This document shows positions 53,740 through 58,922 of a DNA stretch of 64,000 bases, piece after piece. The notes beneath the pieces were generated by a model. That model was not told the origin of the DNA. It worked only from the letters and a program-made list of their open reading frames with translations, and ran no database searches. The DNA lies in NCBI GenBank assembly GCA_029269725.1, contig JARJHS010000005.1:62001-126000 (forward strand). Direction: 5' to 3'. The translations under genes and the position numbers were made by a program. Source of the DNA: Pollutibacter soli (GTDB lineage: Bacteria > Bacteroidota > Bacteroidia > Chitinophagales > Chitinophagaceae). Numbering within the stretch: position 1 is the stretch's first letter; each line of letters opens with the position of its first letter.

Positions 53740-54498
53740 AAGCGTCGGGTTTGGTAAAACGTGAATATCTCAAAGTTTTCAGATATATGGATGCTGCCGG
53801 TTGGTCTATTTTACCGTTTGGAGAAATGACCCACCCCCGGCCACTCTTCCGCTGCGCGAAAGAGGGGAGAGCAGTTTGCGGGCGCAGCTTCGTTCACTGT
53901 GTGGTAATGGCTTTTGGCTCGGTGGGATATAATTTACTGAAGGGTTTTGACTTGTCTCGAAATATCCATGACGAATAGCGAATTTTTGTTGGTGTTTCGA
54001 CGGGCCTCGGAGTGGTTGTTGAAATTCGATAGAGGAGTCGAACACCAACAAAGCAGACTCACTCTGGCCACTCTCCCGCTGCGCGAAAGAGGGGAGAGGT
54101 GGTTGCATGTGCAGCTTTGATTATAATTTATTGAAGGGTTTTGACTTATCTGGAAATATCCATGACGAATAGCGAATCTTTGTTGGTGTTTCGACGGGTC
54201 TCGGAGTGGTTGTTGAAAATCGATAGAGGAGTCGAACACCAACAGAGCAGACTCACTCCGGCCACTCTCCCGCTGCGCGAAAGAGGAGATAGGTGGTTGC
54301 ATGTGCAGCTTTGATTATCATTTATTGAAGGGTTTTGACTGGTCTCGAAATATCCATGATGAATAGCGAATTTTTGTTGGTGTTTCGACGGGCCTCGGAG
54401 TGGTTGTTGAAAATCGATAGAGGAGTCGAACACCAACAATCCCTGGCCTACTTCCAGTTCAACTACTCCCTATAGTATCCGTGAAACACCAACGGAAT
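53740..54498. repeat. 194-bp tandem repeat, ~2.8 copies, carrying the GTTGGTGTT hairpin
   Basis: Copies start near 53938, 54132 and 54326 (AGGGTTTTGACT recurs at 53941, 54135 and 54329, spacing 194). Each contains the inverted pair TTGTTGGTGTTTCGAC and GTCGAACACCAACAA about 45 bp apart, and CACTCTCCCGCTGCGCGAAA. The frames running through the copies on the minus strand are periodic shadows. No gene is supported in this 760-bp stretch. Confidence 0.88.
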
Positions 54499-55488
54499 TC
54501 ATTTTATCACTTCACCTGGTTTACGCTGATCAGCTGTAAATCTCGTCACCTTTACCTGGTCACCAATCTCAATACTCAACAAATCTTCGCCAACCTCTAA
54601 CGGACCGTTATAGGTTTTCTTTGTACGACTGATGAGGTCATTCACCGTTGGAGGTGGGAGGGAAGGGTCAGCAGTGAGCAATACAATATGGGAGTATACC
54701 GCCAGTTTGGGATTGGTCTGTGAAAAGACTTTACCCGCTTCTTCGGGTGATATATGAAAGCCGAGGATCTGGTTAATTAATGGGGATTTTTGCATGGAGC
54801 TTTCATTCGCAGCAGCAACTTCATGCACGACTACATCTACACCCTTTGCATATCGGATAAGGTTTTCACTGTAACGTGTATCACCCGAAAGTATAACAGA
54901 ATGACCAGCATAATCGATTCTATAACCCAACGCAGAATCAATGAACTCAGCATGGCGAACGGTAAAAGGAGTTACTTTCACCCCATTCTTTTCCCAAACG
55001 AATTTCTCTTCTATGTCGGTCGCGATTACCAGTGCTCCGCTATCCGCCTTGTTTCTTTCTTTACTGCGGGTAGTAATATCCCATGAATATGCTTTGACAA
55101 GATTTTCCATCATGTTCTGCGTCCCTGCCGGACCGAATGTTTCGAGAGGATGACTTCTCCTGCCATAAACTGCAGGTATCCATCCTGTGAGCCACAGATC
55201 CGGAATGCCAACCACATGATCTGAATGAAGGTGTGTCAGGAACAGTGCATCGATCGTACCCAACGGGATTTTCAGCTGCCATAGCCTTTGTGAAGCGCCC
55301 CTTCCACAGTCAAACAACAGTTTTTGTCCGCCGGCTTCCACCAGTATAGCGGGTCCGAATCTTTCTATAGATGGCACGGGTGCTCCGGTTCCCAGTAATG
55401 TAATTTTTATTGCAGGCTGAGCAGCTGCATCAATAATGTTAACAATAAATAAGAAAAGCAGAATTCCCGTTTTAAATAAGTTTCTCAT
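54499..55488 (-). CDS. Secreted MBL-fold metallohydrolase (RNase Z-like)
   Basis: A 329-residue protein; ATG 55488 gives the signal peptide MRNLFKTGILLFLFIVNIID. The metal motif is THLHSDHVVGIPD (HxHxDH), with further ligands in VVHEVAA, LSGDTRYSEN and YSHIV. GTGAPVPSIERFGPAILVEA is the RNase Z-type N-terminus, yet export excludes tRNA processing, so it is probably an arylsulfatase/phosphodiesterase-like enzyme. It may be co-transcribed with the CHAT gene 236 bp upstream. Confidence 0.88.
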   Translation of the reverse strand: MRNLFKTGILLFLFIVNIIDAAAQPAIKITLLGTGAPVPSIERFGPAILVEAGGQKLLFDCGRGASQRLWQLKIPLGTIDALFLTHLHSDHVVGIPDLWLTGWIPAVYGRRSHPLETFGPAGTQNMMENLVKAYSWDITTRSKERNKADSGALVIATDIEEKFVWEKNGVKVTPFTVRHAEFIDSALGYRIDYAGHSVILSGDTRYSENLIRYAKGVDVVVHEVAAANESSMQKSPLINQILGFHISPEEAGKVFSQTNPKLAVYSHIVLLTADPSLPPPTVNDLISRTKKTYNGPLEVGEDLLSIEIGDQVKVTRFTADQRKPGEVIK

Positions 55489-55532
55489 CGCGAAAATATT
55501 TACTGTTGAGAGAGACAAATCTTTCACTCATA

Positions 55533-55723: not shown

Positions 55724-56761
55724 TTATATATCAATTACATCAATCTTCTTCACCATCTCCTGCAGATTATCAATCACTGATCCATTACTTTCGATATAAC
55801 TTTGCACCGTCGATGCTGCGATATTTTTTTCAGTATTGATCAATGAACTGAAAATTTTCCTCGAATCAATTCCCGGAAGTTCAAAAGCGGCTTTATCAAA
55901 AACTTTTCTGAATTCCTTATCATCTTTTTTTCCTTCGGCAACCATTTTTGCAGCGGTCAGCGCTTCATTCAATGCAATGATTTTTTCTTTGCTGACGAGG
56001 TCGGGTTTAGAAGCGATGGATTCCACAACGGAAGTGAGGTAATTGGTCGAAAGCGCATCCCTCGTCAGTTTATCATTACCGATAATAGAGCTGTGCTTTT
56101 TTGCTGATCGCTGCTGATCATCTTCAGGCTGACTGTTTTTTATTTCGATATAACTGATCGTAAAATCGCCGTTCGCATTTATTACATCGTCTATTGAAGT
56201 GAATTCGCGGAAAACAATTTTATTTTCTTTATCCATCACCGTTACGAGGTCTTTTGCCTTTGTATAGGCACTTCTGAACGGTTCTTCCTGCCCGATCTGC
56301 TGAAACAACAGCTGCGCAAAGGTTTCAGCGAGATAAGTGTTGATTTCTGTACCGCAGGAGATGATAATAGGTGCCTGTTCTCCGGGGCCCACCTGTTTGA
56401 TGATTTCCTTCGCCAGCGGAAATGTTTCACAGGCGTTGAGAAAAATCAGTTTAATTTGTTTCAGACTACTCAAAATCACCCGCGACATTCTTTCCGGTTC
56501 GATCCTGTAATCGTTTGTAAGATTAATGCATCCATCCTTTGAATGACCGGAGAAATAAAAAATCGTAAAACGGCTGCCGTATTTGGAGAAAGTCTGCGTC
56601 AGCCTGTCTACATCAAAGATCTCATCCTTGATGTAGTAAAGTTTGTCGTTAAACGCCAGCGGCAAAAAGATATGGGTGATGCTCATTGCTTCCTCGGTGA
56701 GGTTGGGCAGCCGATCTTTCATGCTATTGGCAAATACCGTGTAGATCGTGGATTTTTCCAT
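55724..56761 (-). CDS. CHAT domain protease with C-terminal helical extension
   Basis: A 345-residue protein. Residues ~30-200 form a CHAT (caspase HetF associated with TPR) peptidase: catalytic His73 in FYFSGHSKDG and Cys111 in FLNACETFPLAK, followed by IISCGTEIN and AETFAQLL. No TPR is present. Residues ~215-345 are a charged, mostly helical extension (Lys/Asp-rich after residue 215) with no recognised family; it could recognise a target or be cleaved. The caspase-family gene lies 70 bp upstream on the same strand, so both are probably made together. CHAT proteins in bacteria often act as suicide or defence proteases. Confidence 0.9.
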   Translation of the reverse strand: MEKSTIYTVFANSMKDRLPNLTEEAMSITHIFLPLAFNDKLYYIKDEIFDVDRLTQTFSKYGSRFTIFYFSGHSKDGCINLTNDYRIEPERMSRVILSSLKQIKLIFLNACETFPLAKEIIKQVGPGEQAPIIISCGTEINTYLAETFAQLLFQQIGQEEPFRSAYTKAKDLVTVMDKENKIVFREFTSIDDVINANGDFTISYIEIKNSQPEDDQQRSAKKHSSIIGNDKLTRDALSTNYLTSVVESIASKPDLVSKEKIIALNEALTAAKMVAEGKKDDKEFRKVFDKAAFELPGIDSRKIFSSLINTEKNIAASTVQSYIESNGSVIDNLQEMVKKIDVIDI

Positions 56762-56831
56762 GGAATGAAGTAAGCTTTTGTCAGAATTTATGATGAGTCA
56801 GTATTACTTCAGAGCCATGAGTTCAGCCATT

Positions 56832-57695
56832 TCATTTCCTGATGAAACTGAAATATTTCTTAGGGTCGATTTTGAACATTTCTTCCTCACGAAACAGCGC
56901 AGATTCCCGACCGTAAGCGAAAAGATTGGGACGTTGAATAGCTGAAATCAGATCGAATATACGTGAATGTACCTGCTTATATGTTCCAGGTCGTTCGTTT
57001 TCCAGTAAAACCTTTCGGAGTGCGCCGGTCATCAGTCCAAAGCCATCCTGCTCAACAGCTTTCTCAGCATCCTGGCATGCACCGAGCAGCAGTACACTTG
57101 CAGCAATATCATCCTTTATTACTAACGGCATTCGGACAGCATCTGCGTAGTCCTGCTTATTGTTATGATATGCTTCAAGTCCGATGTCTCTTGGCGCTTC
57201 CCTGGTGACATATCTTTTTGGCAGAACAGTAGCTGTTTCTTCTCCCGCCCCTCTAGACATGGAGCCACTATGACAGCTGTCGGACACCATCAAAATTTTT
57301 ACGCCTGCTTCAAAGCGACTGAAATGATCCCAGAGTTCATCATCTATTAGTTGCCGGTCCCAGAGACACCAGGTTTCATCCTGGAAATCGTCTTCATCAT
57401 GATTGATATCCTTCACCTGGCCACCATGACCGGAATAGCTGATGAAAAGGAAATCACCGTTTTTCAGTGTTTCGCTTTGTTTTTTAAGATAGGCATTGAC
57501 GTTAGCGGTGAGCGGCCTTTTGTATTCGTCAGCATCTGAACTCAGCAGCAGCGTTTGTTCTGTGATACCGGCTTTACCGGCAACTTCAGAATAAAATTTC
57601 GCGTCGTTCTCGCAACACGCCAGTATCCCATCCCAGCCATTGTAATGTACGGGGTTAACATTGTTGACACCGATATGCAGAGAGTAAGCCCGCAT
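56832..57695 (-). CDS. Caspase family (C14) / metacaspase-like protease
   Basis: A 287-residue protein; ATG 57695 is chosen because it gives MRAYSLHIGVNNVNPVHYNG, and a strong promoter lies 18 bp upstream; the long upstream frame is non-coding. Catalytic dyad His90 in ISYSGHGGQV and Cys141 in MVSDSCHSGS. The Asp-rich loop after the His (DINHDEDDFQDETWCLWDRQ) is like the calcium-binding loop of metacaspases, which cut after Arg or Lys. No separate regulatory domain is seen. First gene of the caspase-CHAT operon; role may be controlled proteolysis or cell death. Confidence 0.92.
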   Translation of the reverse strand: MRAYSLHIGVNNVNPVHYNGWDGILACCENDAKFYSEVAGKAGITEQTLLLSSDADEYKRPLTANVNAYLKKQSETLKNGDFLFISYSGHGGQVKDINHDEDDFQDETWCLWDRQLIDDELWDHFSRFEAGVKILMVSDSCHSGSMSRGAGEETATVLPKRYVTREAPRDIGLEAYHNNKQDYADAVRMPLVIKDDIAASVLLLGACQDAEKAVEQDGFGLMTGALRKVLLENERPGTYKQVHSRIFDLISAIQRPNLFAYGRESALFREEEMFKIDPKKYFSFIRK

Positions 57696-57713
57696 GTAAT
57701 GCTGAATGATATA

Positions 57714-57742
57714 CAAAGTTAAGAATGATTGTAAATGCGCAA
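57714..57742 (-). promoter_or_regulatory. Promoter of the caspase-CHAT operon
   Basis: On the minus strand, TTG (57742-57740), an 18-bp spacer, then TAACTTTG (57721-57714). The -7 box matches TAnnTTTG exactly and the TTG fits the -33 element. The ATG at 57695 follows 18 nt later, which also supports that start. Best promoter in the window. Confidence 0.75.
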
Positions 57743-58095
57743 CCCGTTTTTTAACGAGGAGGGAGAATCCGGAATACGCAATACAGGAATAGCGGGAAAC
57801 TGAAAACGGACATGTGGAACAGGGAAAAGGAGAAAACAGAAACAGAAACAGTGAAGAAAGGCAATAATAAGCAGGCAACAGGCAACAGGAAACAGCTGGC
57901 TTTTCAGGATGATATATCTTGTCAAAAACGGATGCCGTTGGTTTAATTGCAGAGACGCCATGCATGGCGTCCCTGCAATTGAACAGGAAACAGAAACCGC
58001 AAATCGGTACAGGAGAAAATCAGAGACAGTAACAGTGACACAGCACTCTCTTAGCGTGACTGTTCCTACTGCCTATGGCCTGCTTACTATTGACC
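57743..58095. other. Intergenic region with GAGACGCCATGCATGGCGTC palindrome
   Basis: AATTGCAGAGACGCCATG (57945-57962) and its near-exact reverse complement (57963-57980) form a palindrome with one mismatch, a repeat type found in many bacteria. The surroundings are microrepeats (AACAGGAAACAG). No gene in 57743-58095. Confidence 0.65.
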
Positions 58096-58839
58096 CTACC
58101 ATCTGCTGTCTAACCCAACATATTTCTCCGTCCTGCTCATCTGCTCTTGTATCGCCGACTCACTCATATACCTTTTTCCGCCGGGATATTTTTCTTCGTG
58201 GGGAATAATGTCGTTTCGCATGACAGCGAAACCTTTATTGAGATATGCCTTCCAGGCCAATAGCTGGTAACCCAATCCGCGGGCGATATCGGCACTATCA
58301 GTGTTGCGTTCAAACTGATCCATATATTTTACCGAAACATGACTGATGCCAAGACCGATCAGTCCGAAGGTATTTTTCGTCCCGAAATAAACGATATGAC
58401 ATAGCTCGTGTCCGAAAATGCCTGCCTGTCCGTTTATGCCGGCGTTTACAAACAAAGGAATATTCGATCCTGCGGAAGGTTCAAAAATTTTAATGATATA
58501 AGTTCGCTTACTGGCCTTTCGAAAAACGCTGCCGAATGTAAGGTTGGTTGAAATCAAACCCTTCTCGCTGTTGATGATTTTGAGTTTGATTTTAGTATTA
58601 ACCAACTCAGGAAAATAGGAGAGTGCATAAATCAATTGCTTCGCATACTGCGTAGGAATTACTTTGTTTTTGCCATAAATTTTTTCAAGCGAGTCGTATC
58701 TGATGTTCGCTGAATCAGATATGTCTCTTGCCGGCTGTGATGGTAGTAACGTTTGTGCGGTACTGCAATTGAAAACAGTTATCAGGCTTAAAACAACACC
58801 AGCTTTGATGGAAGCATTTTTCCAGGCTTTTAATACCAT
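58096..58839 (-). CDS. Exported zinc metallopeptidase-like protein (HELxH)
   Basis: A 247-residue protein; ATG 58839 gives a signal peptide (GVVLSLITVFNCSTAQ, possibly lipidated at Cys). The zinc site is IFGHELCHIVYF (HExxH), preceded by NAGINGQAGIF. The downstream Glu or His third ligand may be in DSADIARGLGY (cf. ADxxA of M48 proteases). Family not certain. It lies just upstream of the caspase operon on the same strand, but the ~400-bp gap contains its own promoter region, so it is probably separate. Confidence 0.75.
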   Translation of the reverse strand: MVLKAWKNASIKAGVVLSLITVFNCSTAQTLLPSQPARDISDSANIRYDSLEKIYGKNKVIPTQYAKQLIYALSYFPELVNTKIKLKIINSEKGLISTNLTFGSVFRKASKRTYIIKIFEPSAGSNIPLFVNAGINGQAGIFGHELCHIVYFGTKNTFGLIGLGISHVSVKYMDQFERNTDSADIARGLGYQLLAWKAYLNKGFAVMRNDIIPHEEKYPGGKRYMSESAIQEQMSRTEKYVGLDSRW

Positions 58840-58922
58840 CGTTAATAATACAAATTTCAAACTTATCGCGGATATAAATTTCTGTCTTTTGAAAGTAGGA
58901 GACCGGGGGCATCTGACATTAA

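Follow-up and report, generated by a model that had tools for sequence, protein, structure and literature searches.

Two adjacent genes in a 64,000-nucleotide stretch of the Pollutibacter soli genome (referred to here as the window) encode proteases of the caspase fold: P0001, a caspase-family (C14) protease, and P0002, a CHAT-fold protease. We tentatively read them as a conflict-type (abortive-infection) proteolytic switch built from two genes, in which the CHAT protein would be the initiator and the caspase the executioner; as such, the pair may be a small self-destruct switch. Cyclic nucleotides or CRISPR RNA set off the very few bacterial cascades of two caspase-fold proteases that, to our knowledge, have been described. 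A version consisting of two genes and having another sensor end would illustrate the re-wiring of such cascades, and this pair is small enough for transfer to a laboratory strain.

Layout of the gene pair and its flanks

The two genes are intact open reading frames on the minus strand, arranged head to tail: P0001 (287 aa) occupies 56832..57695 and P0002 (345 aa) 55724..56761, with a gap of 70 bp (56762..56831, minus strand) between them. This arrangement had been described in an earlier, sequence-only reading of the window, as had the catalytic residues, which we find at the positions it gave (His90/Cys141 in P0001 and His73/Cys111 in P0002). The reading frame of P0001 stays open upstream as far as an ATG at 57965. 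A scan of the region listed no terminator-like stem for the gap, the RNA of which folds about as well as its shuffles, and we presume that the two genes are co-transcribed.

The same reading had proposed a promoter upstream of the pair. The string TTG-N18-TAACTTTG, whose form we take to be the Bacteroidota promoter consensus, is indeed present at 57714..57742 (minus strand), 17 nt 5' of the P0001 ATG. The motif itself is not rare: the window contains three copies of its loose form, whereas 20 first-order Markov sequences contain 5.8 on average (range 3-10). Among the three, the copy at P0001 is the only one placed just 5' of a start codon belonging to a supported gene. The argument for a P0001 promoter is one of placement rather than of rarity. 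A sigma-70 scan of the region found no excess (6 sites, against 5.9 in shuffles). About 250 bp 5' of the caspase start there is also a near-perfect palindrome of 44 nt (57941-57984), the 22-nt arms of which are 91% complementary and adjoin without a spacer; its core is found once in the window.

That no gasdermin, NLR, TPR or CRISPR gene adjoins the pair had likewise been remarked, and our Pfam scan named none of these families on 11 window flanking genes, three of which had no match above the cut-off. No gasdermin was named by the PADLOC scan of the flanks either, which on 10 flanking genes gave just three weak matches (E 0.003-0.006; response regulator, MBL protein) that we treated as generic. 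Reading and scanning the flanking genes revealed no cyclase gene and no type III CRISPR gene beside the pair, and MoxR and vWA genes are absent there. We also considered a mobile element or defence island surrounding the pair and rejected it, none being found in the flanking genes read or scanned.

Directly 3' of the pair, the minus strand encodes an MBL-fold protein (54499-55527) that scores below threshold against the Apyc1 (anti-Pycsar) model (38.9 bits, threshold 50) and whose best match outside its own genome, among 40 relatives, is 33% identical. On the 3' side of this gene a 194-bp unit is present in three tandem copies at 53928-54509 (the reference, one at 95% and one at 68%), and an 83-nt stretch at 53837 is related to it. 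On the other side, 400 bp 5' of the pair and on the same strand, lies the gene for a 268-aa protein (58096-58902, minus strand) that matched no Pfam family; by eye, it has a HELCH (HExxH-like) motif and a lipobox-like N-terminus.

P0002 is predicted to have a CHAT fold

P0002 gave no match to Pfam or PADLOC at E values up to 1 and one irrelevant, sub-threshold match to NCBIfam, so the label CHAT rests on its relatives and its fold. The Pfam CHAT family itself (PF12770) was not matched by its relative in Longitalea luteola either (at E up to 0.05), and the relative in L. arenae matched below the cut-off (E 0.023). We aligned 28 sequences (alignment A2): P0002, these two close relatives, and 25 distant sequences taken from the family and class searches and from L. 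luteola, of which just the first 190-210 residues were used. Two candidates were omitted, L057 because of one stop in its match and L100 because its CHAT part is incomplete. At E up to 0.01, PF12770 matches 18 of the 28 and the PADLOC SAVED_CHAT model matches 8, P0002 being in neither group. His73 (in SGH) and Cys111 (in NACET) are the sole invariant columns across the 28, in an alignment that is biased towards the motif region because all of its members were recruited by similarity.

Our AlphaFold model of P0002 was built on this 28-sequence alignment, an earlier three-sequence model having been poor (pLDDT 52.9). It divides the protein into a CHAT domain (residues ~1-210, with block means of pLDDT above 90), a flexible linker (~217-238, pLDDT mostly below 50, hence predicted to be disordered) and a helical C-terminal domain (~240-345, block means of 56-81 after residue 240). 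In Foldseek, the top match of the model is SAVED-CHAT (8tl0; E 8e-8, probability 1.00), and the first five PDB matches are all chains of the activated SAVED-CHAT filament in that entry (E 8e-8 to 5e-7); metazoan caspases come next. The same kinship appears at the level of sequence: the CHAT-family profile matches 8tl0 with an E of 2.4e-22 over residues 286-465 of 496, which places the CHAT part at the C-terminal end of that protein. The model thus gives P0002 a CHAT fold, combined with a His/Cys dyad kept in 28 of 28 sequences, and relates it to SAVED-CHAT.

A linker near residue 215 and a helical C-terminus had both been proposed from the sequence, and the model predicts both, the latter with moderate to low confidence. 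Searching the 195 family genomes with a profile of the C-terminal domain (A3) returned the three known proteins and one weak match (E 0.004), which we took as chance, its locus consisting by eye of ordinary genes. The idea that this domain is a shared, EAD-like adaptor was dropped, as no convincing copy turned up elsewhere in these genomes. Given the low AlphaFold confidence and the lack of a convincing copy in other proteins, we regard a sensor role for it as putative.

Relatives and conservation of the pairing

A profile of P0002 and its two close relatives found matches in 16 of 395 class genomes, its own included. Among the 195 family genomes, three contain the full-length type (CHAT plus C-terminal domain), again counting its own, which is 6.1 Mb in 37 contigs, and four others contain the CHAT part alone. 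A scan of genome contigs for full-length relatives gave two loci, and the species concerned are L. arenae and L. luteola only, both of the Chitinophagaceae like the host of the window pair. Viral contigs yielded 114 pattern matches and no relatives, and plasmids a single distant match. In all three full-length members a caspase gene lies immediately 5' on the same strand, and by eye the flanks of the window pair differ from those in Longitalea; the two genes have therefore remained a pair in differing genomic contexts. Identity between the window proteins and their counterparts in Longitalea is 44-55%, and intact frames and dyads at this distance argue for function.

For the wider CHAT family, neighbours were counted around 30 ORFs with HMMs built from sequences of this analysis. 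The set comprises 21 ORFs from 20 regions (out of 30 class-level matches outside the own genome; L108 has a second ORF), five ORFs from loci of the family search, three from Longitalea loci and P0002. An nSTAND NTPase was the commonest neighbour, being fused or within 5 kb in 12 cases; MoxR was found within 5 kb in three, and a caspase in seven (eight with one weak match). The full-length members account for three of these seven, and the second CHAT protein of L. luteola for another. Caspase, nSTAND and MoxR are all absent within 5 kb in 12 of the 30, a count in which neighbours can be missed because some contigs (L097, L099, L100 and others) are short. The conserved adjacency that the sequence-only reading proposed to look for thus holds in 3/3 full-length relatives. 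It does not extend to the wider family, where the outcome is the one that the reading had named as refuting it: of the 27 CHAT ORFs outside the full-length group, four (five with the weak match) have a caspase within 5 kb, while an nSTAND NTPase is fused or within that distance in 12.

Six of the distant relatives (L099, L102, L104, L105, L106 and L112) are stand-alone proteins of 191-205 aa that align with the CHAT family and keep both catalytic residues. Pfam DUF6642 is matched by six of the 28 sequences in A2 (best E 1.5e-40), presumably the same six, and this sequence comparison suggests that DUF6642 comprises CHAT-like proteases with a single domain.

The caspase P0001 and its ancestry

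P0001 matches Pfam PF00656 with an E of 3.3e-11 (43.8 bits, cut-off 21.4) and carries the dyad His90 (in SGHG) and Cys141 (in DSCHSG), as expected of a C14 member. Its best PDB sequence match is 3bij (GSU0716; E 1.4e-46, residues 4-275), which we take to be an uncharacterised protein from Geobacter. In the loop after the catalytic Cys, within otherwise variable sequence, lies Arg165 (in TREAP). An Arg is present at one and the same place in this loop in all eight caspases of the P0001 group that lack a hydrolase half, P0001 included (seven from the alignment, and G095 by eye), as well as in one of two hydrolase-fused caspases. Because Arg and Lys are frequent in this loop, the match in position may in part be a chance one, and we take it only as a hint that Arg165 is a candidate processing site.

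In both Longitalea species the caspase is the N-terminal part of a larger protein (878/879 aa) that also carries a subtilisin (S8) domain, called by Pfam for L. luteola. Other caspase-subtilisin fusions are found on contig C12 of the P. soli genome itself (874 aa), in G028 (880 aa) and in G095 (truncated at its start where the contig ends), and caspase relatives without a subtilisin half occur in G006 and G108. In a tree of 10 rows, with three of its seven inner branches open, the window caspase joins the Longitalea fusions with a support of 91/97, which does not reach the star threshold of the tool. Three changes of the subtilisin label are required on this tree, and these could be one gain and two losses; the label clusters no more than in shuffles, of which 232 in 500 scored as low. 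Judging from these sequences, the likeliest history is that the window caspase probably lost its subtilisin half; alternatively, caspase and subtilisin may have fused repeatedly. A free-standing S8 half was sought in the own genome and rejected, the C12 fusion being all that was found. In G006 (L045 9375-12815), a 271-aa caspase without subtilisin, a 508-aa protein and a 370-aa second caspase are encoded in slightly overlapping frames on one strand, making another multi-protease operon. Together with the five-gene difference between the two Longitalea loci, described below, the caspase-subtilisin relatives offer natural comparisons for finding the essential parts.

MoxR/vWA loci in Longitalea and in the own genome

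The L. luteola pair stands at the front of an operon-like run; five genes follow on its 3' side. The first of these encodes a caspase-alpha/beta-hydrolase (1101 aa); the others encode a second CHAT protein (580 aa, with no Pfam match and assigned to CHAT by a model made here), a MoxR-type ATPase (337 aa), a vWA-like protein (400 aa, with a weak Pfam match at E 0.08 and otherwise recognised by a model partly built from it) and an LRR/pYEATS protein (1499 aa). The same site in L. arenae lacks this five-gene block and has a carbon-nitrogen hydrolase gene directly 3' of the CHAT gene. A carbon-nitrogen hydrolase gene also closes the L. luteola block (called by Pfam in L. luteola, and judged by eye to be the same). 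Because the L. arenae CHAT gene directly adjoins that hydrolase gene, the five genes appear to have been gained or lost just 3' of the pair.

Counterparts of the parts of the L. luteola locus are spread over three contigs of the P. soli genome. Contig C1, a different contig from that of the window pair, has a caspase/MoxR/vWA/third-component locus (L064 8284-16924). The end of the third component there matches the CHAT model made here (E 1e-11), although searching the genome with A2 did not return this protein; the locus also encodes a further caspase-like protein in which the usual dyad is absent by eye. On contig C12 (L043 5801-12007), the gene for the 874-aa caspase-subtilisin adjoins one for a caspase-alpha/beta-hydrolase (1180 aa), and no CHAT or MoxR gene was found in the 19-kb stretch around them. 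The A2 profile found one match in the own genome besides P0002, at C12:157428-157616 (L124; E 2e-8), covering 62 profile positions inside an 1820-aa open frame.

These loci invite an explanation that we consider unlikely, namely that P0001 and P0002 are parallel client effectors of the unlinked C1 MoxR/vWA/caspase machinery, or of other NTPases, and do not activate one another. Control in trans would suit the position of the L. luteola pair at the head of a run that contains the five-gene block, the presence in the own genome of both the C1 locus and the C12 caspase-subtilisin and caspase-hydrolase genes, and the nSTAND proteins fused to or near 12 of 30 CHAT ORFs. It sits less well with L. 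arenae, where the pair is retained and the five genes are missing from the corresponding site, and with the separate contigs on which the window pair and the C1 machinery lie.

The same comparisons qualify the suggestion of the sequence-only reading that the pair forms a minimal cascade. The two genes are separable from the neighbouring machinery, as seen in L. arenae and in the window compared with L. luteola. The word "minimal" is not supported: the caspases of the Longitalea pairs are fused to subtilisin, the L. luteola pair is part of a MoxR/vWA operon, and the MoxR/vWA/caspase locus on C1 of the own genome could act in trans.

A proposed CHAT-to-caspase switch

In the switch that we tentatively prefer, a stimulus would be sensed by, or recruited via, the helical C-terminal domain of P0002. 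The CHAT domains would be brought together or oligomerise, which would turn on the His73/Cys111 protease; P0002 would then cut P0001 in the loop after its catalytic Cys, with Arg165 as the candidate site, and activated P0001 would cut many cell proteins, so that growth stops. In favour of this proposal are the caspase gene immediately 5' of all three full-length CHAT genes, the invariant His73/Cys111 dyad, the kinship of P0002 with SAVED-CHAT and the Arg of the caspase loop. Relatives are, furthermore, found in MoxR/vWA and nSTAND loci, the setting of conflict systems according to PMC7159879. MoxR-vWA systems are treated there as conflict systems, with pairings of caspase and alpha/beta-hydrolase and predicted peptidase cascades. 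Against it, P0002 itself has no Pfam or PADLOC match, SAVED, cyclase and CRISPR genes are not seen beside the pair, the full-length members number three only, and there is no strong defence match among the scanned flanks.

One form of this proposal would be a self-contained CHAT-to-caspase cascade that dispenses with cyclic nucleotides, CRISPR and NTPases, in which the new C-terminal domain senses the threat and the subtilisin-stripped caspase executes. We think this version decidedly unlikely; if true, the pair would be a unit of two genes able to move and also to plug into a MoxR/vWA operon.

The order of the two proteases in our proposal is the reverse of that in the sequence-only reading, which had the caspase activating the CHAT protein. 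CHAT acting on caspase appears likelier because SAVED-CHAT (8tl0), the closest solved homologue of P0002, reportedly acts as the upstream protease. An improbable alternative is that the caspase is the initiator and cuts the charged linker of P0002 (~205-225), thereby releasing or activating the CHAT domain. The linker has features that would allow this, being variable in length and mostly predicted to be disordered over 217-238, with basic residues preceding an invariant SSIIG in 3/3 relatives, a pattern drawn from three sequences; orthocaspases, moreover, cut after positively charged residues (PMC6426788). Least credible is regulated proteolysis outside defence (in development, stress response, or turnover of secreted or surface proteins), which the metabolic, regulatory or unassigned flanks without a strong defence match and the HELCH/lipobox-like gene 400 bp 5' on the same strand would fit, but which the scattered occurrence (the full-length type in 3 of 195 family genomes), the differing flanks between species and the conflict-type loci of relatives speak against.

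Comparison with known systems

The preferred CHAT-to-caspase switch can be set beside four kinds of known system. The stand-alone prokaryotic metacaspases and orthocaspases, represented by 3bij (GSU0716), match P0001 along almost all of its length; P0001 differs from them in being paired with a CHAT gene and in having subtilisin-fused relatives in Longitalea. In the type III-E Craspase the effector is also a CHAT protease, TPR-CHAT (Csx29), whereas neither TPR nor gRAMP was seen at the window pair, and no Csx29 chain was among the best 50 fold matches of the P0002 model.

With the MoxR-vWA ternary system (PMC7159879), the likeness lies in L. luteola, where the relative sits with MoxR, a vWA-like protein and a caspase-alpha/beta-hydrolase; in contrast, neither MoxR nor vWA adjoins the window pair or occurs at the L. 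arenae site. The main text of PMC7159879 does not contain the term "CHAT", and the caspase-subtilisin fusion is absent from those of its passages that we draw on.

The closest parallel is with SAVED-CHAT and PCaspase, of type III-B CRISPR and CBASS: in both cases a CHAT protease of the same sequence family is encoded with a separate caspase (in 3/3 full-length relatives of P0002). In contrast, the known system contains SAVED, and none was detected in P0002; CHAT is at the C-terminal end of 8tl0, whereas in P0002 a helical extra domain follows it; and no cyclase or CRISPR gene was seen in the flanks of the window pair. A SAVED domain fused to CHAT was not found in P0002, the sole PF18145 match of the genome being on contig C34 (L130 7643-11878), where a SAVED-domain protein lies beside AAA-ATPase-like and (by eye) cyclase-like proteins. 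A link between the pair and this SAVED protein was considered and rejected, since it is on C34 in what by eye is a CBASS-type locus; the C34 locus is probably CBASS and unlinked to the pair. As there is no detectable SAVED, and as no cyclase or CRISPR gene was seen in the flanks, we do not count the pair as a member of the SAVED-CHAT/PCaspase system. SAVED-CHAT is reported by Steens et al. to cleave and activate PCaspase, so that the cascade runs from CHAT to caspase. In our analysis, the window pair is best described as one that would work like this cascade while standing outside its membership.
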